Positions 20,551-34,884 of a stretch of DNA of 64,000 nucleotides are shown piece after piece. Source of the stretch: Thermoplasmataceae archaeon (lineage in GTDB: Archaea > Thermoplasmatota > Thermoplasmata > Thermoplasmatales > Thermoplasmataceae); contig JAVYSB010000001.1 of assembly GCA_038729425.1 (NCBI GenBank), forward strand, positions 60,523 to 124,522, in the 5' to 3' direction. Every line of letters begins with the position of its first letter. Within the stretch, counting starts at the first letter, position 1. The notes beneath the pieces were generated by a model. That model ran no database searches. It was not told where the DNA came from and saw only the letters and a list, made by a program, of their open reading frames with translations. The translations under genes were made by a program, and so were the position numbers.

Positions 20551-20964
20551 CATGGCAGTCAATGTGTCCCTGTCCCTAACCTGGTCATCGTATACCAGAG
20601 GAGATTCTTGTAACCTTCCAACTCTTCCGGAAAAACGCTCCAGAAATTCATAGAACTCACTCGGACTGCTGCAGATCACTATTGCTTTTTTGGTGTTCTT
20701 TGATATCCCAGCAGAGTGCAATGCACTTACGATCTGAGGCGACCCCGTGATATACATCATTACCAGCGATCCAAAATCGTGTATACGAGAGCTATAAGCA
20801 AGCCTCCTAGTAGCACGTTCGACGGCTATCCTCACTTGGAGCTCTGTAATGACTGCTTTCAAGTCAATGACAACAAATGTATCGGTCTGCTGCTTTGAAA
20901 AATCGATGATTTCACTCACACAGTTTGGTTCAAGAATAGAAATATAAAATAAATTAACCAACAT
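20527..20964 (-). CDS. KEOPS complex subunit Cgi121
   Basis: 145 residues from the ATG at 20964, which lies 11 bp inside the end of the LonB gene; the same frame is open further upstream but that part is antisense-like noise inside lon. Family features: the helical [20 protein letters not shown] followed by [19 protein letters not shown], matching the Cgi121 pattern where conserved residues contact the Bud32 kinase. KEOPS makes the t6A37 modification of ANN-decoding tRNAs, and Cgi121 helps hold the tRNA 3' tail. Called from fold pattern and length, so less certain than catalytic subunits would be. Confidence 0.75.
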
Positions 20965-22900
20965 TGGCTCCAGCGCGTCCCGTTCCGGGGCCAATTTTTG
21001 GCTTAAGAAATTGTGATATTCTGTCAAGGAATTTCTGCCTGTCCGGTCCGGAAACGAAGGCGGTCTCGAGCACCTGCTGGATATTATCCACGGGAACGAT
21101 TTCGATCCTGTCCTTGTGTTTCTCGTCCAGTATGACGTCGCCATAGTTGGCATTTGGTAGTATTACTTTCTTCATGCCTGATTCGATTGCGGCCTCAACC
21201 TTAGCAGTCACGCCACCTACAGGAAGAACCGCTCCTCTCACGCTCAGTGAACCGGTCATAGCTATAGTCTGGTCGATAGGAATGTTCTCAATAGCCGATA
21301 TAACTGCGGTTGCGATTGAAACGCTGGCGGAGTCACCCTCAACTCCATCGTATGAACCAACAAACTGGATGTGAATATCCATGTCAGTTATGTCCTTGCC
21401 ACTTATTTTCTTGAACACGGCGGAGACATTTTCAACAGCTTCCTTGGCGATCTCCCCGAGTTTTCCTGTTGCAATAACGCTTCCGTTACCCTTCTTCTGT
21501 GCAGGGGTAACTTCGGCAACTATGGGCATAACGATACCGGTATAATCTGCCATTCCACTGTTTGCGCCCATGACAGCGAGGCCGTTGACCATTCCGACAG
21601 CCTCTCCTTCAGAAAGGAACGTCTTGTAGTTCTTTCTCACCTCAATCATTTTGTCGGCAACTTGCTGCTCAAGCGGCTTGCTTAGGTTTTTAGCGTCCAT
21701 AACATGCTTTGAAGTAACAATATCGGCCTTCTCGCTAATTGCTATGTCTCCCGCAACCCGGATAAGACCGCCAAGTTCTCTCAGTCTGAGGGTAAGTTTC
21801 CCCTTTCTCCCCGATCTCTTCTGCGCCTCCTTTATTATTTCGACGACTGCGCCTTTGTCAAGATGAGGGATCTTCTTGTCCTTCTGAACTTCTTGAGCGA
21901 TAAATTGAACTATTTTTTGCCTATTTTCGTCACTATCATCAAAAACATTGTTGACATAGACTTCGTACCCATATCCCCTTATTCTAGACCGAAGGGCAGG
22001 GTGTATTCCCTGAACTGCGTCAAGATTCCCCGCGGCAACCAGTACAAAGTCGCAAGGTACCGGTTCTGTCTGAACCATTGCACCAGCGCTCCTTTCGCTC
22101 TGTCCGGATATTGAAAATTTCTTCTCCTGCATTGCTGTAAGAAGAGCCTGCTGGCTTTCCGGCCTCAGGAGGTTCATTTCATCTACGAACAGCACGCCTT
22201 TGTGTGCCTTGTGAATATTGCCCGCTTCGACTCTATCGTGCGCTGGAGTCTCAAGCCCGCCAGACTGAAATGGATCATGTCTGACGTCTCCCAGCAACGC
22301 ACCGGAATGAGCCCCAGTAGAATCTATAAAAGGCGGTTTCTCGTTTCCCGTATGCGAAACAAGAAGTTTAGGGATCATTGCTTTTTCCTGTCTGAAGCTT
22401 GGATTCATGGCAAGTGCCACATACAGGATTGCAGCTGCTATAATGGCATAAAAGAGTATAATTATGCCATACATAACCGCGAAAATTATTCCTATGAACA
22501 CGATTGAGAAAATCACGAGCATGATGGATCTGGCCCTGTCCCGCTTTACCCTTTCAGCCTTGATCTGATACTGTTTTACGACCTCTCTGCCTTTCCCGGC
22601 AGGTAACGTCTTTACCTTTGGCCTGTTTGAGTCCTCAGGGTTCGGGAATACAAGTATATCCTCCAGTTCTTCTTTTGGCAGAAAGTCCACCATAGACTGG
22701 GCAAGCATTGACTTTCCAGTTCCAGGGTCCCCGATGAGTAATACATGTCTTTTCTGGAGCGCGGCTTTCTTTACTACTTCCCCTGCGCTCTCCTGTCCTA
22801 TGACCTGATCAAAGAGGACTGGTGGGACCTTGATGTCCTTTGTCGATGTAATATTTAATTTGTCAACCCATTCCTCTACACTGTCGACTGTATCTTCCAC
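20954..22900 (-). CDS. lonB: Membrane-anchored archaeal Lon protease (LonB)
   Basis: 648 residues. AAA+ module with Walker [18 protein letters not shown] (about 54-70) and Walker [11 protein letters not shown] (about 236-245). Between them sits the LonB-specific insertion with two membrane helices (about 124-165). The protease domain has the catalytic Ser in [12 protein letters not shown] and Lys in [14 protein letters not shown], the Lon Ser-Lys dyad. There is no N-terminal LAN domain, as expected for LonB. It degrades membrane and misfolded proteins from the cytoplasmic face. Starts with GTG. Co-transcribed with Cgi121. Confidence 0.96.
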
Positions 22901-24570: not shown

Positions 24571-25659
24571 GTGTCGTTTACCATTGGAAACGATCTCAGG
24601 TTTACCGTTTTTGGAGAATCTCACGGCCCAGCAGTGGGGGGGGTCATTGATGGTTTCCCATCTGGATTTGCTCTGAATCTGGATGGCGCCTCAAAATGGA
24701 TGGAACGTAGACGCCCCGGCCAGAGCGAGATCACCACAAGACGCAATGAATCAGATATTGTCAGTGTGCTGTCTGGGCTGAGTGACGGTTACACCAATGG
24801 GGGGCCACTTGCTTTTTACATCAATAACAGCGATGTTATAAGCGAGCATTATTCTGAACTTAAATACAAACCAAGGCCAGGGCATGCTGACTTCTCGATG
24901 CTGATGAAGTACGGGAAACACAGACCTTTTCAAGGCGGAGGATTCCTTTCTGGAAGGCTTACTGCACCACTAGTATTTGCGGGCGCAACCTGTATTCAGT
25001 TGCTTGAAAAGTATAACATCACCATTACATCGTACATTGACAGGATTGGTGATACCAACCTCGATCATGAGGTAGAGATTCGTCCGGAAGATGCATATTC
25101 CTTCAAGACAAGGATCCCTGACCAGAGTGTTGATGAGGCGGCTTACTCTGCCATCAGGGCGGCATTAGGGAGAGGAGACAGCCTCGGTTCGTCAGTACGC
25201 ACGGTCGTCACCGGCCTTCCCCCCGGTATCGGTGAGCCTATTTTCGATTCCATGGAAAGTGAGATCAGCAGGATGATGTTTTCTATACCGGCAATAAAGG
25301 GAATTGAGTTTGGCCTTGGATTTGACTTCGCCAGCTCTGCTGGCTCGACGGTCAGGGATGAGATGTACGTTAAGGAAGGTAAAGTATCATTCCTGAGCAA
25401 CAATAACGGCGGCATCCTTGGTGGAATTTCCAACGGAATGCCCATGACTTTCAGGGTGGCCGTGAAACCAACATCTTCCATAAGAATGGAGGAGAGGACC
25501 GTGAACCTCGAAACCATGGAGGATACGTCTATCTTGATAAAGGGCAGGCACGACCCCTGTATAGGAATACGCGCTCTTCCTGTAATCCAGACTGCAACTG
25601 CGATTGTTATAGCAGACTTTATGATTACAGCGGATCGCATTCCAAGGGTGTTGACCTAG
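24571..25659 (+). CDS. aroC: Chorismate synthase
   Basis: 362 residues, full length. FTVFGESHGPAVGGVIDGFP at the N terminus holds the catalytic His. RRRPGQSEITTRRNESD, KYRPGHAD-like YKPRPGHADFSM and FSGR-like GGGFLSGRLTA follow, with a second His in KGRHDPCIGIRA near the end. It uses reduced FMN to convert EPSP to chorismate in aromatic amino acid synthesis. GTG start. No other shikimate gene is nearby. Convergent with the DUF2070 gene (4 bp overlap). Confidence 0.96.
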   Translation: MSFTIGNDLRFTVFGESHGPAVGGVIDGFPSGFALNLDGASKWMERRRPGQSEITTRRNESDIVSVLSGLSDGYTNGGPLAFYINNSDVISEHYSELKYKPRPGHADFSMLMKYGKHRPFQGGGFLSGRLTAPLVFAGATCIQLLEKYNITITSYIDRIGDTNLDHEVEIRPEDAYSFKTRIPDQSVDEAAYSAIRAALGRGDSLGSSVRTVVTGLPPGIGEPIFDSMESEISRMMFSIPAIKGIEFGLGFDFASSAGSTVRDEMYVKEGKVSFLSNNNGGILGGISNGMPMTFRVAVKPTSSIRMEERTVNLETMEDTSILIKGRHDPCIGIRALPVIQTATAIVIADFMITADRIPRVLT

Positions 25660-27425
25660 AACAGGCTTGAGAACGGGATAAGGAAGAGCAGAAATGAAAT
25701 AATCAGTGCGAGGGGAAGAGTAAATGCGATCGCTCTCTTGGCCTTCTTCACAGTGGAAAGGACGCTTGCCGTCAGCTTGTGATAGCTGTTCTCTTCACCC
25801 ATCTTCACCCCGACATCTACTGACGCCATACCTAACTCAACGTTGCCAGTATTCCTCACTGCGTCCCTGATAGTTCCTACAATGAGATCAGAGATTATGT
25901 CCAGGTCTCCGTCCATACCCAGCGGAAAAACATCCAAAGTGCTCGCGTTGACTATATGATTGTCCGTGGTATAGATTTCAACGTTAGATACAATATGAGC
26001 TGACTTCTTTCTGACCATGTCTATGACCTCCCGCGTTACATTGTTTGAATCCGTCAAGACAATGGCATCATTTCTTTCTCCAGAATTGATAGCAAGGGTC
26101 TGAATTCCCATTTTAGCCAAGCCTGGGAAAGTTGCTTTCAAAGATGCAAATCCTACCTTTGCAGGTAAATTTGGATTGGATCTCACAAATTCTCTGGTAA
26201 ATGGCTTTATTAAATCAGAACAGTCCCTGAGCTCGTTTGCTCCTTTGGTAAAATTGTTCTGGGCATCAACCAGCGCAAATTCACTTGCTCCGTGAGCTTT
26301 TATAGCCTCCATTACCCTCATTCCCTCACCGAGCTCGATGTCGTCGAACGGTTCCAAGTCGGGCACTACACCACCAAATCCAAAATTTCCGAATCTCATG
26401 AGGGTTATGCTGTATCTGCCCGCGTTAAGCTTTCTGAATCGTGACATCACTTTTGTGTACTTCATTTTGCGAAGTGCCTCACGAATTCCTGATGCAATGT
26501 TATCAATGTCATTTTCTCCCTGGCAGTTGTTCGCGTGGGTTGTTGAAGTGTGAAATACCATGAGTTCCCTGCCCATATCTGAAAGCTTATCCTGCAGCCT
26601 GATTGGCAGGTCGCTGCAGCCAAGACGCCCAAACGGTCCGGGGTGCACATATGGAAAAATGAGTGACACAAGCGGTCCATGCGAATTCCGGATGTCAATT
26701 ACCTTGACAGGAACGATCTGCTCTTTCTTGTATATCCTGTCAAAGAACTCTTTGCCAACCTGATCCGAATCTCCCATGGATCGAAAGTTGAGGAAAAACT
26801 GCAAAAGTTTCATAGGGCTTACGCCGTAGTCTGTCGCGAAGTCCGAAAGCACTGATCTTGCAAACAGGATTGCAATCAGGGCACTAATAACGGATGAAAG
26901 AACAAAGGGTATTATGAGTGAGTATCCCCCAAAAAGGTATCCAAACGTTATTATTGCGGCATATGTGTAATTAAGGGATGGGGGGAGGAGGTACGATATT
27001 TTCTCAGTATAGTACACCTCAAAGATAAGAACTCTGAAAAATGAGACGAATGACACAGCAAAGAACAACTGCGCTTCCACGCTTCCAAAAGCATCCAAAA
27101 GATGGGAAATCCAAAAGATGACTGTCCACAAACCGTAGCTTATAAAGTCCAGATATACAATCCTTCTAAGCGGGAAATGGAATTTTCCAATCTTAATAAA
27201 TATGGAATCGAAGATTATCACAAGTATGAATGAGAGAATGAAGCCGATCGCAACCTCCAGGATTGACCCTACCAGAACATAATCAACAACTGCGAGAATG
27301 AAAATTGGAACTATGTAGAATTTCCATCCCGGCGCCCCTCTGACAAATCTGCTGAGGTCTTCAATTGATCTGTGTTTCTTAGGTACTGGCTGCGTTGGTG
27401 TGAATACGCTGTGATTTAATAATGC
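25656..27425 (-). CDS. DUF2070 family membrane protein
   Basis: An archaeal-only family. About six to seven N-terminal helices are followed by a soluble domain with conserved polar motifs YVHPGPFGRLGCSDLP, FHTSTTHANNCQGENDID and EFALVDAQNNFTKGAN, rich in His, Asp and Glu as in a metal- or phosphate-binding enzyme. A final hydrophobic helix sits near the C terminus (IAFTLPLALIISFLLFLIPF). Function unknown. The first canonical start is a GTG at 27221, but the same frame continues upstream as credible protein (KKHRSIEDLSRFVRGAPGWK, then two hydrophobic stretches) to a stop just above 27425, with no ATG, GTG or TTG. A TTG at 27433 would join if one A were added in GTAAGC. Confidence 0.85.
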   Translation of the reverse strand, partial: ALLNHSVFTPTQPVPKKHRSIEDLSRFVRGAPGWKFYIVPIFILAVVDYVLVGSILEVAIGFILSFILVIIFDSIFIKIGKFHFPLRRIVYLDFISYGLWTVIFWISHLLDAFGSVEAQLFFAVSFVSFFRVLIFEVYYTEKISYLLPPSLNYTYAAIITFGYLFGGYSLIIPFVLSSVISALIAILFARSVLSDFATDYGVSPMKLLQFFLNFRSMGDSDQVGKEFFDRIYKKEQIVPVKVIDIRNSHGPLVSLIFPYVHPGPFGRLGCSDLPIRLQDKLSDMGRELMVFHTSTTHANNCQGENDIDNIASGIREALRKMKYTKVMSRFRKLNAGRYSITLMRFGNFGFGGVVPDLEPFDDIELGEGMRVMEAIKAHGASEFALVDAQNNFTKGANELRDCSDLIKPFTREFVRSNPNLPAKVGFASLKATFPGLAKMGIQTLAINSGERNDAIVLTDSNNVTREVIDMVRKKSAHIVSNVEIYTTDNHIVNASTLDVFPLGMDGDLDIISDLIVGTIRDAVRNTGNVELGMASVDVGVKMGEENSYHKLTASVLSTVKKAKRAIAFTLPLALIISFLLFLIPFSSLF

Positions 27426-27460: not shown

Positions 27461-28582
27461 TCAGGAGCTTTTTTTCAACTCAATGAGACTCTTATAATGA
27501 TTTTCAAGCATTTCCACATGTGTATGAGGATCATACCTGCCGGATATGTACTTTCTCGCGCTTTCGCACAATTCTGTGTGCTTGTTATTGTTGCTCTTCA
27601 ATTCTCGAATCTTCTCCGCAACTTCCTTCGGCTTTGAAAAATCAACGCCTATCATGCCGTTTTCAGGTGAATTAGTGTTTATAAGTGGGAATTTATTTGA
27701 AACGATTGCCGGTTTTCCACACGCCATAGCTTCGAGAACTGCTATACCAAAAGTATCCGTCTCTGAAGGGTGCACGAAGACAGAAGCATTAGAAAGGGCA
27801 CTCAGCTTCTCCTGCTCCCCAATATAGCCCGTCATCTGCACAAGATCCTCAAGATCCATCTTGGATATCATTTTCCTGATCTTATCCTCCTCTGGTCCAG
27901 TGCCGGATATGACAAACCTGACGCCATTGTTTCTAGGGAACTCATTGGCTACGTCCAGTATATTGTAAATACCCTTGTCCTTGGTGATCCTCCCTATATA
28001 TTGAACCACGAATTTGTTTTCCCTGCTCTTCCCCGGTTTATACCTGTCTGTACGAACGAAGAGTGGAAGCTCAATGGCATTTCTTATACCATTTTCCTTC
28101 AGGAATTCCACTGCAGATTGACTCGGTGCCGTTACCATGTCACATTTATCGTAAAGGTAAACATTGTATCTCCATGAAAGATCAAACAACTGGCTCTTGA
28201 AGGGAAGTTTTATGGATTCCTGCATCCGTATAAAATCCGTGTGAAACGTGGCGACAACCGGTATGTTTTTCTTTCTTGCGGTGTGATACCCTATTGACCC
28301 CATGAAGAACGAGGAATGTATATGAACAACGTCTAGCTCAAGTGAATTCAGTTTCCTGAACAGTAGAAAAGGATAGAGAGCCAGTGGCCATCTGTATTGC
28401 GGATACACGAAAATGGGAACGGACTGGCTTATGAATACATTCTTCTCGTGCCTATCCCCGCTCAACGAAAAAACAAAGACCTCGTGCCCCCGATCCTCCA
28501 ATGCTCTCTTGGTATCACGGAGATAATGGGAAACGCCATCCGGCGTTGGGTAATATGTATCCGTGAAGAATCCTATCTTCAT
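27461..28582 (-). CDS. Family 4 glycosyltransferase (GT-B fold)
   Basis: 373 residues. The N-terminal FFTDTYYPTPDGVSHYLRD is the acceptor-domain glycine loop of GT4. The C-terminal domain has FVVQYIGRITKDKG and VFVHPSETDTFGIAVLEAMA, the EX7E-type donor site, then CGKPAIVSN. It probably transfers a hexose to a lipid or to another sugar; diacylglycerol glucosyltransferase-like enzymes look alike, but the acceptor cannot be read from sequence. Seven bases separate it from the upstream kinase-like gene, so they share an operon with AlaRS. Confidence 0.88.
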   Translation of the reverse strand: MKIGFFTDTYYPTPDGVSHYLRDTKRALEDRGHEVFVFSLSGDRHEKNVFISQSVPIFVYPQYRWPLALYPFLLFRKLNSLELDVVHIHSSFFMGSIGYHTARKKNIPVVATFHTDFIRMQESIKLPFKSQLFDLSWRYNVYLYDKCDMVTAPSQSAVEFLKENGIRNAIELPLFVRTDRYKPGKSRENKFVVQYIGRITKDKGIYNILDVANEFPRNNGVRFVISGTGPEEDKIRKMISKMDLEDLVQMTGYIGEQEKLSALSNASVFVHPSETDTFGIAVLEAMACGKPAIVSNKFPLINTNSPENGMIGVDFSKPKEVAEKIRELKSNNNKHTELCESARKYISGRYDPHTHVEMLENHYKSLIELKKSS

Positions 28583-28589
28583 TACTCTA

Positions 28590-29663
28590 TCAGCCTTCTA
28601 TTTTAACTATCTTGAACATGCCATATCCGGTCAGTACTCTTACATATTTTGGTACTAAGATAGAGCTAATATTGTCAAGATCAATATATAACTTTTTTGT
28701 ATAGGTTAACTTTTCTTCTGCCGATATTACAATTATATTTGAAAACCCAAGCCTGGTCACTATTCTACCTGAAATCTGCTTATTTCCCCTCCCAAGAAGG
28801 AAATTCTGCCCACCCACCGGAGATATCACCAGCATACAGCTGCCTTCACAAACCACTTCGTATATCCTTTCCTCAGTAATATCCTGCTCCTCTACATTCC
28901 CATCAAATACTAGATCGAATCCGAGCAAGCTCGTTTCCTTTCCTAGGCGCCTTATAATTGCCTTGCATGTTGATCCCGGACCTAAAATGTATCTGACATT
29001 TTTGTCTAGATGTTCCAGAAAATAATCCACGATTCCTTCAACATCACCTCCGAAGAAGTCCATTTTGGGTGAATTTATTATTCCCTCGCTGATTGGAGTT
29101 CGTAATTCTCCGTATAGTCTTGGTGATGGATGCAGATCCCCAATTTCTTCTTCCGGAATGTCCACGATTTCAGCTTTCACTGTTTCGAAGGTACCCGCAG
29201 ATAAAATATTCCTCATAACATTAACAGCGAACTGAACACTAGCAGCAAAGACAGAACTTTCCATTTTGACTCCGGATGGTACCCCAAGAACTGGGATATC
29301 ACTGTGCCCTGATGATAGTATATCCCTGGCTGTCCCGTCTCCACCACAGAACACAACGAGATCTGGATCTTTCTCGGCGACACGATCCATAAAGCACCTG
29401 GTGTCAACGCTGGTCGAAGGGTTACCCGGTTGATAGATGATCCCGTAACTCCTAATGCCAAGATCATCCATTTCATCAGCACCCATGATTCCTGAAGGGA
29501 CAAGGTAATCTATTGCCAGATCCTTCACTTCGGAAAGAAATTTAAGGCCACGCGTCACAGACACACTCATTTCGCCCTTAACATCTTCAACAGAATCTGA
29601 TCCCTTTCTGCCCACCAGCGCTCCGTAACCGGCCCTTGGATTTATGAAGAAGCCTACTCTCAT
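28590..29663 (-). CDS. ATP-NAD kinase-like protein (COG3199/AcoX type)
   Basis: 357 residues. FFINPRAGYGALVGRKGSD is the first nucleotide motif. VVFCGGDGTARDIL (about 103-116) contains the NAD-kinase/diacylglycerol-kinase signature GGDGT, and PVLGVPSGVKMESSVFA follows. The C-terminal domain (about 215-357) is beta-rich as in the AcoX group. The group includes long NAD kinases of Archaea but also enzymes of other specificity, so the substrate is an inference. The gene is 7 bases downstream of the M50 homologue and 7 upstream of the GT4 gene. Confidence 0.8.
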   Translation of the reverse strand: MRVGFFINPRAGYGALVGRKGSDSVEDVKGEMSVSVTRGLKFLSEVKDLAIDYLVPSGIMGADEMDDLGIRSYGIIYQPGNPSTSVDTRCFMDRVAEKDPDLVVFCGGDGTARDILSSGHSDIPVLGVPSGVKMESSVFAASVQFAVNVMRNILSAGTFETVKAEIVDIPEEEIGDLHPSPRLYGELRTPISEGIINSPKMDFFGGDVEGIVDYFLEHLDKNVRYILGPGSTCKAIIRRLGKETSLLGFDLVFDGNVEEQDITEERIYEVVCEGSCMLVISPVGGQNFLLGRGNKQISGRIVTRLGFSNIIVISAEEKLTYTKKLYIDLDNISSILVPKYVRVLTGYGMFKIVKIEG

Positions 29664-29670
29664 TGAGGGT

Positions 29671-31443
29671 TTATGTTATTTGCCCTATATATCTTGGCTC
29701 TGATGGCGGGGGCTGAAACGAAATGTATACCACCGCAGCGTCGAACTGAGTATCCGTCACCAGGAGGGTCATTTCACCGGTCACATTAACGGGGGTTACC
29801 TGCAGCTGGAGTTGTCCTTTAACCTGAAGATTTCCACCCGGAGACAATATAGTTGCTGACCCGTATGCGCTCCTGTTAACGGTTTCTGTTCCCACTGTAT
29901 AGCGGTATGAATTACCGGTGTCTGTAAATATATACGCTGAAATGTTAAGGCCCACTTCCCCGGTATTCTCGACCGTTATATTTACGGTTCCATTCCACGT
30001 TTCAGATAATTTACCACCGTTGTTGGCAAATCCAGGGGGGTTCAGTGTCAGAGGGTCTGTCCTGAAATTGGTATTCACGAGAATTACAGTCAACTGGATA
30101 TTCGAACTGCTTCCCCCGTAGTAAGTGGTAAGGGTATAGTTATAATAACCTGTCCTGTTTAGATTCTGTGTTTCCAGCGTTACATGATAGAGAGCAGAAC
30201 CCCCAGGATCTATGGGCGAAGATCGCTCTGAGGAAAATGTGTATCCAATGAGCGGAGATACTGAAAACGCCGGAACCATAGAGGATATGCCTCCGTTTTT
30301 CACGTATACTGTAAAATTGGCATTCTGTGGGGTTCCATTAATGATCAGGAAGTTTGGATCACTTACGCTTGCGGTTATATGGCTCTCTGAGACATGAAAT
30401 GGAAAAGGAACAAGCCCAAGGAACAGGATGATTATGGCAATGCCGCCTATAACTCTGGAAAATTTGAGCGGCCGGTATATGTTGCCCAATGGTTCAGGTC
30501 CACGAATGCCTAATATGACGACAAAAACGGCGAGTATGAACCATGGAGTGTAGGTTAATCCAATGAGCACAAGCCCGATGATAGAAATGTAAGAAACGTA
30601 CCTAGAATAGCCGCCGAATAGTCCCACAGACACCAAACCTCCATCAAGGAATCCGGCTGGAATTGCATTGAACGAGTTGACAATGAGGCACACCCATCCG
30701 CTGTAAGCTATTATATTAGGCACTGAAGAAACAGGATAGAAGAAATTTATCAGAATTGGATATATGATAGGAAGGCTGACGGTATTAATGGGGGAATTTA
30801 CGCCTGGTGCGTATGAGTTTGAAGCTGGAATGGCAATGTTGCCTACTATTATCAAAAATAAAGAACCGATAAAACCCGCAATGATTGGAAAAGACCCGGC
30901 TTCAAGGAGAGACCTCCGCGTCTTGAATGGCCGGGACGGCAAATTGATCACACCCATTGTCCCTATCCCGAATGGATCTGGTATGAAGAGAGGTGCCTCA
31001 TATTTCATACTGTTTCTCCTTAGAGCATAGAATCTGGCAAGCTCCCGCAGCCCGAGAACCCCAATTATGGGCAAAACAAACAAGAGAAATGCCACGGCGG
31101 TGTTGGCAAAAAAACTGGTTGTATGCGTGTATTGTTCCTGATAAGTGTATCCTGTGTACCAGAGACTTGCAATGGTAAGGGCAACCATAATCGATCTGAT
31201 CAGGTTCCTGTTCCTATGCTGAGAAACGCTCTTGATTACATAAAGCTCGTCACCGAACATGCCGGACGTGAATACCACATACCCGTGGGATGAAAGTTCG
31301 TCCACCAGTTCTGAAAATTTCCCCTCTGGGTAATTGGCAAGACCAGGTATCCTGAAATAATATGAACCACCCCTCTCCCCGGTTTCTGAAATTTCATAAT
31401 GAGATGCAACGATCTTCTGTATCCTATTGTATTCATCATCCAT
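29671..31443 (-). CDS. Inactive site-2-protease (M50) homologue with C-terminal beta domains
   Basis: 590 residues. After an N-terminal soluble region of about 75 residues come some nine membrane helices. The helix that should carry HExxH reads LGLRELARFYALRR: the Glu is kept but both His ligands are Arg. The second family motif, normally NLLPxxPLDGG, is NSFNAIPAGFLDGGLV, keeping the Asp ligand. Loops PDPFGIGTMGVINLPSRPFK and LLEAGSFPIIAGF match the family between those motifs. The last 230 residues form extracytoplasmic CARDB-like beta domains. Zinc-dependent cleavage is therefore unlikely; a scaffold or substrate-binding role is inferred. Confidence 0.8.
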   Translation of the reverse strand: MDDEYNRIQKIVASHYEISETGERGGSYYFRIPGLANYPEGKFSELVDELSSHGYVVFTSGMFGDELYVIKSVSQHRNRNLIRSIMVALTIASLWYTGYTYQEQYTHTTSFFANTAVAFLLFVLPIIGVLGLRELARFYALRRNSMKYEAPLFIPDPFGIGTMGVINLPSRPFKTRRSLLEAGSFPIIAGFIGSLFLIIVGNIAIPASNSYAPGVNSPINTVSLPIIYPILINFFYPVSSVPNIIAYSGWVCLIVNSFNAIPAGFLDGGLVSVGLFGGYSRYVSYISIIGLVLIGLTYTPWFILAVFVVILGIRGPEPLGNIYRPLKFSRVIGGIAIIILFLGLVPFPFHVSESHITASVSDPNFLIINGTPQNANFTVYVKNGGISSMVPAFSVSPLIGYTFSSERSSPIDPGGSALYHVTLETQNLNRTGYYNYTLTTYYGGSSSNIQLTVILVNTNFRTDPLTLNPPGFANNGGKLSETWNGTVNITVENTGEVGLNISAYIFTDTGNSYRYTVGTETVNRSAYGSATILSPGGNLQVKGQLQLQVTPVNVTGEMTLLVTDTQFDAAVVYISFQPPPSEPRYIGQIT

Positions 31444-31454
31444 TATTCTTTACC

Positions 31455-34145
31455 TTACTGAAGCTTACTATCGAAAAAACTCCTTATTAACTTTTCATCC
31501 AGATTCCTTGATGAAATCGCAGAGTAGTATCTGTCTGATCCGTTGTTTCCATTGTCTGGAAGCCCCAAGCCTTGTGCTATTTTCCTGGCACTGGATTGAT
31601 CTCTAACGAAGATCATGTGCTTTTTTGAATCATGTCTGTCAAGGGAAACTATTACGACATTAGCCTCCAGTCCGTAAGCAGCTTTTGACAGATCTTTTTC
31701 TGCATCCTCGTCGAGGGAGCCATGGATAAATATTACCCTTTCCTTTCCGGATTCTATCGTTTTCCCTGTGTGGATTAGTGCCTTCACAGACTCTTTCAGG
31801 TGCTTCTCATGGTTCTTTCTAGCATCAATGTTTTCGTTGACGATAACCCTGATGGCGTCTGAAATATTGCCCTCACTATAACCAATGATTTTCCTGATTT
31901 CTGCAAGTTCCTTATAGCTATTGTTAAATAAATTGACTGCAGCAGGACCGGCCACAAATATTATTCTCTGGATCCCTTCCTGTATGTTCTCCACGCTTTT
32001 TATCTTGACGAGTCCTATCTCCGCAGTTGATGAGAGATGTGTGCCGCCGCAACCCTCTGCGTCAACTCCGTCAATCTCGACGACCCGGAGTTTGTCCGAG
32101 AGGGGGACGCCACCTTGAAAGAGCCTGAAACCATATCGTTCAATAGCGTTGTTCCACTCTATGTTCTTCACTGTAATCTTTCTGCTTTCTGTAATAATTT
32201 TGTGGCATTCGCGCTCAATCTTCAGAATGGTATCTGCATCGATCTTCCGGTAGTTGGTTATATCTATTCTCGAATCTGCAACTTCCTTCTGGACACCGCT
32301 CTGCCATACGTGATCGCCGATAACTCGCCTCATTGCGCCTAGCAAGAGGTGCGTTGCCGAGTGGTGTACCATCAGCTGCCACCTTCTCTCGTAGTCTATT
32401 ATGCCCTTTACCCTTGATTTCTCTGGTATATTTCCATTTATATAGTGAACTATTGCCTTTCCGTGTTTCTCTACCCTTGTAACTTCTACTTCATAGTTCC
32501 CGTATTTCAGGACACCCAGATCATACGGCTGTCCTCCACCTTCTGGATAGAAGGCTGTCTGGTCAAGAATGACATACCCATTTCCTGAATACATTACGGA
32601 AGCAGTGAATTCTCTCATGTTTACATCATCATAATAAAGCGACCGCGTGAAAATATCAGGAAACCTTTCAGTCGGTTCCCTTTGCAGCTTTTTCACGTCA
32701 TGAAGGGATACAACCTTGGCCTGGAAGTTATGCGGTATTTCCAAATTCTTTCCAGTTATTTCCTTGTAGATCTGTGACGCAAATTCAGGATATATTCCAT
32801 ATGAATCGTATAATTCCAGCAGTTGTTCCTCGCCAACAGATCCTGCTTTTTCTATGGTTCTTCGCAGGACAGCTTCTCCTCTTTTCAGGGCAGCCTCGTA
32901 TTTGGTAGTTTCCTCCTCGATAACATCCCTGATAAATTCCTCTGGGAAGTTGAGCTTCATGTCTCCTAGATTATCCTTCTGCATCCTTATGAGATCAAGA
33001 AGCGTGATACCAGAGCCAATTTCACTGAGATACCTTAGAGATCTTCTGATAAGCAGCCGTGAAAGATACCCGACCTTGACATTGGAAGGGATGACATAGT
33101 CGCTGAACATGAATAAAAGCGATCTGCTGTGATCGGCTAGTATGAAAGCTGCCATCAGCTTCTCCATTTCCTTTGTAATCTCATCTGAATTATTCCCATT
33201 TTCTGTTGCATGGCTGGTAATTACCCGTCGGATTATTGCAAGGGGCAACTCTGTTTCGTCAGACGCCATAGCCCTGACAATTCTGGCAATCATGTTCTCG
33301 TCAGGTCTCGTGATACCTGCTTCATTCAGAATTGCCGACAATATCTTCGGAAAAATTGAGTCATAGACTGTGGAAGTACCGTTGCTGAGCCATACTAGCC
33401 TCTCAAGGCCGTACCCAGTATCCACAATCCTCTGAGGCATAGGGGAATACCTCTTCCCTTCAATTTCAATCTCCCCATCTTCATCTTCGGAAAGATCCAT
33501 GAAAACGAGCGTTGCGACTTCCAGACCAAGTACGAAGACTTCCAGGGCATTACCAGCATTTCCGCCTCCGGACCATGGTTTTTCCTTGAATGTGATGAGC
33601 TTCTGGTCAATACCCAGTTTCTGGGTCAGAAATTCGTTGCAGTACCGGACTGTGCCTTCCTTCCAGTAAATTTCCTTGTTGTCTGTATTGAAGGAGTCAT
33701 GACAGAGCATCTCAAAACTGGTGAGATGCCTACCGGTTACGCCGACCTGATCGATATCATTCATCCTGATGCATGGCTGTGACATTGCCAGAGGATTACC
33801 GGGAGGAGCCACAAGCCCAGAAGTCACCTGAGGTTGGAAATCATATATTGAGGCATTTACGAGTAGAACATCATCCCGCCATCTGGGGACTATGGGGTAT
33901 GGAGAAACAATCTTATGGGTGGCCCTGAAGAAATCAAGGAATTCTTTCCTCATCTCGTCAAGGTTGTATTTTGTAGCAGTAGGGGGCATTCCGATGAACC
34001 CGTATTCGTCGCAGGGAGGGTCTCCGCAAGTCTTTCTTTTATCGTCAGATGTCCAGAAATACGATAAACACGATGTGCACTGTTTCCTCTTCATGGATCT
34101 GGACTTGAAGAATTCCAGCTCAAAAGCCTTGGTTTCGCCCGACAT
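31455..34145 (-). CDS. alaS: Alanyl-tRNA synthetase, archaeal type
   Basis: 896 residues. The archaeal N-terminal zinc-ribbon-like part has CTSCLSYFWTSDDKRKTCGD; class II motifs follow around PIVPRWRDDVLLVNASIYDF and GYGLERLVWL. The editing domain keeps HHSATHLL and CGGTH, which clear mischarged Ser/Gly-tRNA-Ala. The C-terminal C-Ala region completes a full-length enzyme. It charges tRNA-Ala by recognising the G3:U70 pair. It heads a minus-strand operon with the M50 homologue (11-base gap), the kinase-like protein and the GT4 enzyme. Confidence 0.97.
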   Translation of the reverse strand: MSGETKAFELEFFKSRSMKRKQCTSCLSYFWTSDDKRKTCGDPPCDEYGFIGMPPTATKYNLDEMRKEFLDFFRATHKIVSPYPIVPRWRDDVLLVNASIYDFQPQVTSGLVAPPGNPLAMSQPCIRMNDIDQVGVTGRHLTSFEMLCHDSFNTDNKEIYWKEGTVRYCNEFLTQKLGIDQKLITFKEKPWSGGGNAGNALEVFVLGLEVATLVFMDLSEDEDGEIEIEGKRYSPMPQRIVDTGYGLERLVWLSNGTSTVYDSIFPKILSAILNEAGITRPDENMIARIVRAMASDETELPLAIIRRVITSHATENGNNSDEITKEMEKLMAAFILADHSRSLLFMFSDYVIPSNVKVGYLSRLLIRRSLRYLSEIGSGITLLDLIRMQKDNLGDMKLNFPEEFIRDVIEEETTKYEAALKRGEAVLRRTIEKAGSVGEEQLLELYDSYGIYPEFASQIYKEITGKNLEIPHNFQAKVVSLHDVKKLQREPTERFPDIFTRSLYYDDVNMREFTASVMYSGNGYVILDQTAFYPEGGGQPYDLGVLKYGNYEVEVTRVEKHGKAIVHYINGNIPEKSRVKGIIDYERRWQLMVHHSATHLLLGAMRRVIGDHVWQSGVQKEVADSRIDITNYRKIDADTILKIERECHKIITESRKITVKNIEWNNAIERYGFRLFQGGVPLSDKLRVVEIDGVDAEGCGGTHLSSTAEIGLVKIKSVENIQEGIQRIIFVAGPAAVNLFNNSYKELAEIRKIIGYSEGNISDAIRVIVNENIDARKNHEKHLKESVKALIHTGKTIESGKERVIFIHGSLDEDAEKDLSKAAYGLEANVVIVSLDRHDSKKHMIFVRDQSSARKIAQGLGLPDNGNNGSDRYYSAISSRNLDEKLIRSFFDSKLQ

Positions 34146-34214: not shown

Positions 34215-34884
34215 TCACTGCCTTTCCAGATAAATCATGTAGTTGGCGCGGTCATACGGGATCAAGTTCACTTTCTGTACTACCCTGAAACCTTTGATCT
34301 CCCGGATAGCTGCATTGAGGATCTTTTCCTCATCGGATCGCGAGGATATTGCCCTGATCTTCACCACGAGCAGGGCCTTTTTTGCTTCAGGAAAGGCAGA
34401 GGCATTGTTGTTGAATATCTGTATCTGGTTTCTCTGGGAAATGTCCTGATACAGCACATCCACATCCTCCACCAAGAAAGAATATTTCTCCACGAGATTC
34501 GCGTCCTCCAGTATGGGATAAATATTATTGCGACTTTCTGCGAGGGTAAGCAGTTTCATGAAAGGCTCATATGCAAGTTCAACCGCATATATCCTTCCGG
34601 AGACACAGATATCGGAAAGATGGCTCACCGTGGTTCCCGTGGATGCCCCCAGATAAAGAACCCTAGTATCTTCCCCAAATGGGAAGAATTTAAGACCTTT
34701 CAGGAAGCCGGCAGAGAGTTTGCTCCTCTTGGGGTCCCAGTATCGGAAAAACCTGTCAGAAGACCTCTTGGTAACCTCGCCGTACACGCTTCTGGGCACC
34801 TCAGACTGTGTGTAAAGCCTCCGCCCTTCTATTAAAATCCTGCGCGAATCAAATGCTGCCAGATCAATAAACCCCCAGAATCAT
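34215..34884 (-). CDS. flpA: Fibrillarin-like rRNA/tRNA 2'-O-methyltransferase
   Basis: Fibrillarin core: VYGEVTKRS, the conserved YWDPKRSKLSAGFLKGL, SAM motif VLYLGASTGTTVSHLSDI, YAVELAYEPF and DVLYQDISQ. It uses C/D-box guide RNAs in the sRNP. The first canonical start in frame is a GTG at 34799 (MPRSVYGE), but credible sequence continues upstream (FDSRRILIEGRRLYTQSEV, typical of the N-terminal domain) to a stop near 34896 without ATG/GTG/TTG. The ATG at 34884 enters this frame if one C of the run 34872-34876 is removed, giving 222 residues beginning MILGFIDLAAFD. The family has 210-230 residues, so the longer form is expected. Divergent from the aMBF1 gene. Confidence 0.88.

Follow-up and report, generated by a model that had tools for sequence, protein, structure and literature searches.

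A conserved site-2 protease homologue without zinc histidines in Thermoplasmataceae: a putative pseudoprotease with an intact, tail-less paralogue

iRhoms are eukaryotic pseudoproteases that derive from rhomboids, proteases of the serine fold, and they restrain rhomboid signalling. Among site-2 proteases (S2P, M50) the described counterpart is EGY3 of plants, a pseudoprotease without the zinc motif that stabilises other chloroplast proteins and has been described as the only S2P pseudoenzyme, restricted to plants (PMC10978774, PMC9355673). M50 is absent from a review of inactive metallopeptidases (PMC11266112), and in the open-access literature S2P pseudoproteases are reported from plants only, with an earlier mention in a table being possible. 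Here we describe an S2P homologue from a Thermoplasmataceae archaeon that has lost both zinc histidines and is conserved across that archaeal family.

The protein of 590 AA is encoded within the window (the whole stretch of 64,000 nucleotides that was analysed) by a minus-strand open reading frame running from 31443 down to 29671 (Table 1). On the same strand, a gap of 11 bp separates it from the preceding gene for alanyl-tRNA synthetase (AlaRS); this adjacency is conserved in relatives, in line with the AlaRS operon proposed from the sequence alone. In most relatives the ATP-NAD kinase-like protein, here of 357 AA, belongs to a tight gene run with AlaRS and the S2P homologue. A fibrillarin gene (34215-34799, minus strand) lies upstream of AlaRS, as it does at variable distance in many relatives. 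The window also encodes a DUF2070 membrane protein of unknown function (25656-27221, minus strand), whose Pfam match spans nearly the whole length, and an archaeal membrane LonB protease (20954-22900, minus strand).

Table 1. Coordinates in the window of the zinc-less S2P homologue, its parts and its neighbours.
Feature	Position	Strand	Basis
Zinc-less M50/S2P homologue, 590 AA	29671..31443	-	weak Pfam M50 match; strong profile match to intact homologues
N-terminal alpha/beta domain, residues 1-76, probably cytoplasmic	31216..31443	-	model secondary structure; alignment with intact homologues
Membrane domain, residues 77-344, S2P fold	30412..31215	-	structure models, 3b4r and SpoIVFB matches, dN/dS
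Helix 111-143, counterpart of the catalytic helix	31015..31113	-	model; profile alignment with intact homologues
RELAR at the place of HExxH, residues 133-137	31033..31047	-	sequence and orthologue motif counts
Retained beta hairpin, residues 148-168, where S2Ps have their re-entrant beta loop	30940..31002	-	model; SpoIVFB loop in PMC11486902
LDGGL at the place of LDGGH, residues 266-270, Asp267 kept	30634..30648	-	sequence and orthologue motif counts
C-terminal tail, residues 353-590, Ig-like beta domains, sequon-rich	29674..30387	-	model, sialidase linker/Ig-like matches, sequon count
AlaRS, conserved upstream neighbour of the zinc-less gene	31455..34145	-	
ATP-NAD kinase-like protein, 7 bp downstream of the zinc-less gene, neighbour in most relatives	28590..29663	-	
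GT4 glycosyltransferase, 7 bp beyond the ATP-NAD kinase-like gene	27461..28582	-	same strand as the zinc-less gene

The Pfam M50 match of the 590-AA protein is weak (E 8e-4, below the curated cut-off) and falls over the LDGG region, and an NCBIfam search with the protein gave no meaningful match. A profile of the family, compared by hhalign with the intact long homologues, aligned over 558 columns (E 5e-80), pairing RELAR with HExGH and LDGGL with LDGGH; the tails were aligned as well. The intact homologues score above the Pfam M50 cut-off, and their HELGH and DGG motifs align with the solved archaeal S2P 3b4r. By fold and descent the 590-AA protein is thus a member of the M50/S2P superfamily.

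A model of the whole protein (m25c035fc1b8e, pLDDT 77.6) begins with an alpha/beta domain, continues with a helical membrane domain and has beta domains from residue 356; the RELAR motif lies in helix 111-143, and a beta hairpin spans residues 152-166. Since the fold search with the whole protein was dominated by the Ig-like tail, the membrane domain was also folded separately (pLDDT 79.6, pTM 0.82). The separate model matched 3b4r with Z 10.1 over 182 residues and SpoIVFB with Z 8.5 and 7.0, and the next entry reached 5.3; over both models the Z for 3b4r was 9.3-10.1. The best fold matches are therefore S2Ps and the motif helix corresponds to the catalytic helix, an outcome in favour of the sequence-only reading, which had named this structural comparison as a check. 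In SpoIVFB a re-entrant beta loop stands in front of the zinc motif (PMC11486902), and at that position our model places a hairpin. The 3b4r protein, the S2P of Methanocaldococcus jannaschii, shares its membrane fold with the zinc-less protein but differs in its active-type zinc site, in having no N-terminal domain that could be aligned and in the absence of a tail.

Motifs were counted in two partly overlapping sets, 30 orthologues from whole genomes and 44 readable loci of a named genome collection; in the scan of genome contigs a single-protein query gave nothing and an alignment-based query gave the loci. Carriers in the named collection include Ferroplasma acidarmanus Fer1, Thermoplasma sp., Acidiplasma aeolicum and Thermogymnomonas acidicola. 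The loss of both zinc histidines, first noticed in the present copy, extends to all sampled copies of the family: 30/30 whole-genome orthologues carry [RK]-E-x-x-[RK] and 44/44 loci R-E-x-x-[RK], so the loss is neither a one-off nor a sequencing error. When the orthologues at the AlaRS locus were aligned, as had been suggested, no sampled family member had HExxH. Only the His ligands of the motif are replaced, by Arg or Lys (position 133, Arg in 28 and Lys in two; position 137, Arg in 17 and Lys in 13; n = 30), and the motif Glu (Glu134) is kept. On the tree, position 137 switches four times between Arg and Lys and takes no other residue, compared with the 15 changes needed at neighbouring position 135. 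The LDG motif of active S2Ps is retained with its Asp ligand, as also read from the sequence alone. Glu134, Asp267, Gly268 and Gly269 are invariant among the 30 orthologues, the Glu and Asp also among the 44 loci, and the zinc-less copies keep further invariant Asn, Pro and Gly residues. The His that closes LDGGH has gone as well, giving way to Leu, Ile, Met or Val (n = 30), and with it the GP motif of the third helix. One assembly, G030, holds two zinc-less copies (contigs C15 and C1, L007), one of which sits at a contig edge and is 98% identical to the copy of another species, likely owing to contamination or a strain mix.

The C-terminal region, originally proposed to be an extracytoplasmic beta tail, is built of tandem Ig-like beta domains, with matches to the Ig-like linker of bacterial sialidases and to further Ig-like folds. 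Over the 30 orthologues, N-x-S/T sequons in the tail number 304, against 127 expected from composition (2.4x); the tails of intact copies are also enriched, and the other domains show no excess. As the excess is confined to the tail, the latter is probably exoplasmic and N-glycosylated. The zinc-less tail has conserved positions of its own, e.g., Pro391 and a PAF motif, that are absent from intact copies.

Every well-covered genome of the family contains two homologues, whereas almost everywhere else in the class there is one. The second, short copy (~365 AA) stops right after the membrane domain and has no tail, and its HExxH and LDGGH are intact in 28/28. This short M50 copy (e.g., L099, L100-L106) occurs in the same genomes as the zinc-less one and shares its N-terminal and membrane domains, but differs in the intact HExxH, the missing tail and the locus. 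The sister families of the order possess a single tailed copy of about 550-590 AA with both motifs intact in 15/15, and the motifs are likewise intact in 20/20 class outgroups. AlaRS immediately precedes the zinc-less copy, in the same orientation, in nearly all loci, and likewise precedes the intact tailed copy in 12/12 order loci with long flanks, plus L035; among the class outgroups the adjacency occurs in 3/20. The AlaRS-linked proteins of the sister families (L091-L098, L107-L110) agree with the zinc-less copy in locus, length and tail and in the 558-column profile match, and differ from it in their intact HExxH and LDGGH. Because AlaRS adjacency is common to the zinc-less and the intact tailed copies, the zinc-less copy is the positional heir of the ancestral gene, and because HExxH is intact in the syntenic genes of sister families, its loss is derived within Thermoplasmataceae. 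The short copy has been relocated, is not a neighbour of the zinc-less gene and often heads a NurA-HerA-Mre11 cluster. At more than half of the short-copy loci L099-L106 and L051-L070, homologues of NurA, HerA and Mre11 follow in the same orientation; genes for the processing of DNA ends are unexpected company for a membrane protease.

In a tree built with the motif columns removed, the zinc-less and the short copies each formed a clade at 100/100, and both grouped with the order at 98/97. A joint exclusive clade of the two is neither rejected nor supported (AU p 0.48); the zinc-less branch is long, and long-branch effects may bear on its placement. Elsewhere in the phylum, outside the class, 18/20 homologues are tail-less, and a lateral origin of the short copy from these was considered. 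With these homologues added and the fast zinc-less rows removed, the short copy fell inside the tailed order clade (98/99), which contradicts a lateral origin, with some doubt due to long branches, and indicates that its tail was most likely lost secondarily. The tail is present in the intact order copies too and was thus not acquired along with the loss of the zinc site. Alignments, synteny and trees show that a tailed protease of the ancestor was duplicated and its features were divided between the daughters: the gene that stayed beside AlaRS retained the tail but not the metal site, and the gene that moved away retained the metal site but not the tail. The intact tail-less paralogue turns a lone pseudoprotease into one half of a split gene pair.

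Values of dN/dS were obtained with YN00 for five pairs with usable synonymous divergence (four for the tail), of which the pair G014/G030 counts for little, since the second G030 copy, located at the edge of a contig, is a possible contaminant. For the zinc-less copy they were about 0.03-0.13 in the membrane domain and about 0.13-0.43 in the tail, and for the short copy 0.04-0.07. The zinc-less copy is the faster-evolving of the two, yet clearly constrained, and the purifying retention of the fold that had been postulated is borne out by the membrane domain. With the loss fixed in a single clade (100/100) under purifying selection, the protein is, on sequence evidence, a pseudoprotease. Such ratios speak for constraint, not for which function is constrained.

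The reading that we favour, with a probability of about 0.5, is that of a conserved S2P pseudoprotease, arisen by duplication and complementary loss, in which charges took the place of the metal and which binds without cleaving, perhaps in the service of the tail-less active copy. Such a protein would be unable to cut peptide bonds by the zinc mechanism. In place of the zinc ion with its +2 charge, two fixed positive charges (Arg/Lys) would form pairs with Glu134 and Asp267, and this pairing would maintain the fold of the helix bundle and of the substrate cleft when no metal is bound; alternatively, Arg/Lys may stand close to the end of a membrane helix owing to the positive-inside rule. The exoplasmic, probably glycosylated tail and the retained hairpin might bind segments of membrane proteins without cleavage, and the protein could thereby stabilise, gate or deliver substrates. 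The most economical client would be the tail-less active copy, which lacks the ancestral tail. A further-reaching version, which we put forward tentatively and consider doubtful, is a split intramembrane protease with two obligate partners, a heteromeric S2P complex of a tail-less catalytic subunit and a metal-free, sensor-tailed pseudo-subunit whose Arg/Lys would substitute electrostatically for zinc; if true, it would be unlike any complex described.

Co-evolution of the two copies was examined through their distance matrices. Corrected for AlaRS, these correlate at 0.56, but unrelated HerA controls were equally high and the HerA-controlled correlation was 0.15, so that against HerA, NurA, NADK and Mre11 controls the apparent signal is unspecific. 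The lack of specific co-evolution with the short copy favours a scaffold or receptor that works on its own and has no connection with the active copy, with a tail that senses or binds outside and a membrane domain acting as a platform or as a chaperone, for which the stabiliser EGY3 is a precedent (PMC10978774). The gene's own neighbours (AlaRS, NAD-kinase-like and glycosyltransferase) and the conserved tail positions not found in intact copies point the same way. However, that one copy has lost the tail and the other catalysis is most simply explained by a division of labour between them, and we regard full independence as possible though rather unlikely. By analogy with BofA/SpoIVFA or iRhoms, the zinc-less copy could also be a competitive regulator that binds the substrates of active copies or inserts beside them, restraining cleavage. 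Partner proteins are known to keep SpoIVFB inactive (PMC11486902), and the substrate-side hairpin and cleft are retained in the model; the faster evolution of the zinc-less than of the active copy speaks against this role, which seems improbable to us.

The same faster evolution relative to the short copy, with tail dN/dS up to about 0.4, would suit a relict gene that decays slowly and is kept merely through its operon with AlaRS. This is hardly credible, being already contradicted by constraint across the whole family: open frames are long throughout, dN/dS of the membrane domain is 0.03-0.13, the Glu, Asp, Asn, Pro and Gly residues are invariant, and the gene is present and alike in all sampled family loci. 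The invariance of Glu and Asp in all zinc-less copies, despite the lost zinc role, might instead hint at a protein that is still an enzyme, with a metal-free mechanism that relies on Glu134, Asp267 and the Arg/Lys pair. Other active-site features (the third-helix GP motif, the His of LDGGH) are gone, we know of no precedent for metal-free catalysis in the S2P fold, and we consider such an enzyme very unlikely.

Taken as a conserved, non-cleaving pseudoprotease, the protein would represent an old, family-wide prokaryotic S2P pseudoprotease. Sister families still carry the ancestral, intact form at the corresponding locus, and the genomes that encode the pseudoprotease also encode an intact paralogue. 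It is therefore possible to trace, one step after another, how catalysis was lost, how the tail was split off and how charges may have replaced the metal, and to test this by exchanging a few residues; these acid-loving archaea would provide a natural example of how an enzyme can become a conserved membrane protein that does not cut. Its nearest functional precedent is EGY3, likewise a conserved S2P/M50 homologue without the zinc motif. EGY3 is a plant plastid protein, and its loss is apparently unrelated to the archaeal one; the trees place the latter inside the archaeal family, which argues for independent loss. The archaeal protein differs further in its probably exoplasmic Ig-like tail, none being reported for EGY3 in the literature consulted, and in the proposed charge-for-metal swap and split-pair history. 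iRhoms, too, are pseudoproteases from an intramembrane protease family; they are eukaryotic and of the serine (rhomboid) fold, unlike the archaeal S2P homologue, and the likeness is one of principle only. In that sense the comparison of iRhoms with rhomboids, drawn in the sequence-only reading for a receptor or scaffold role, is a reasonable analogy.
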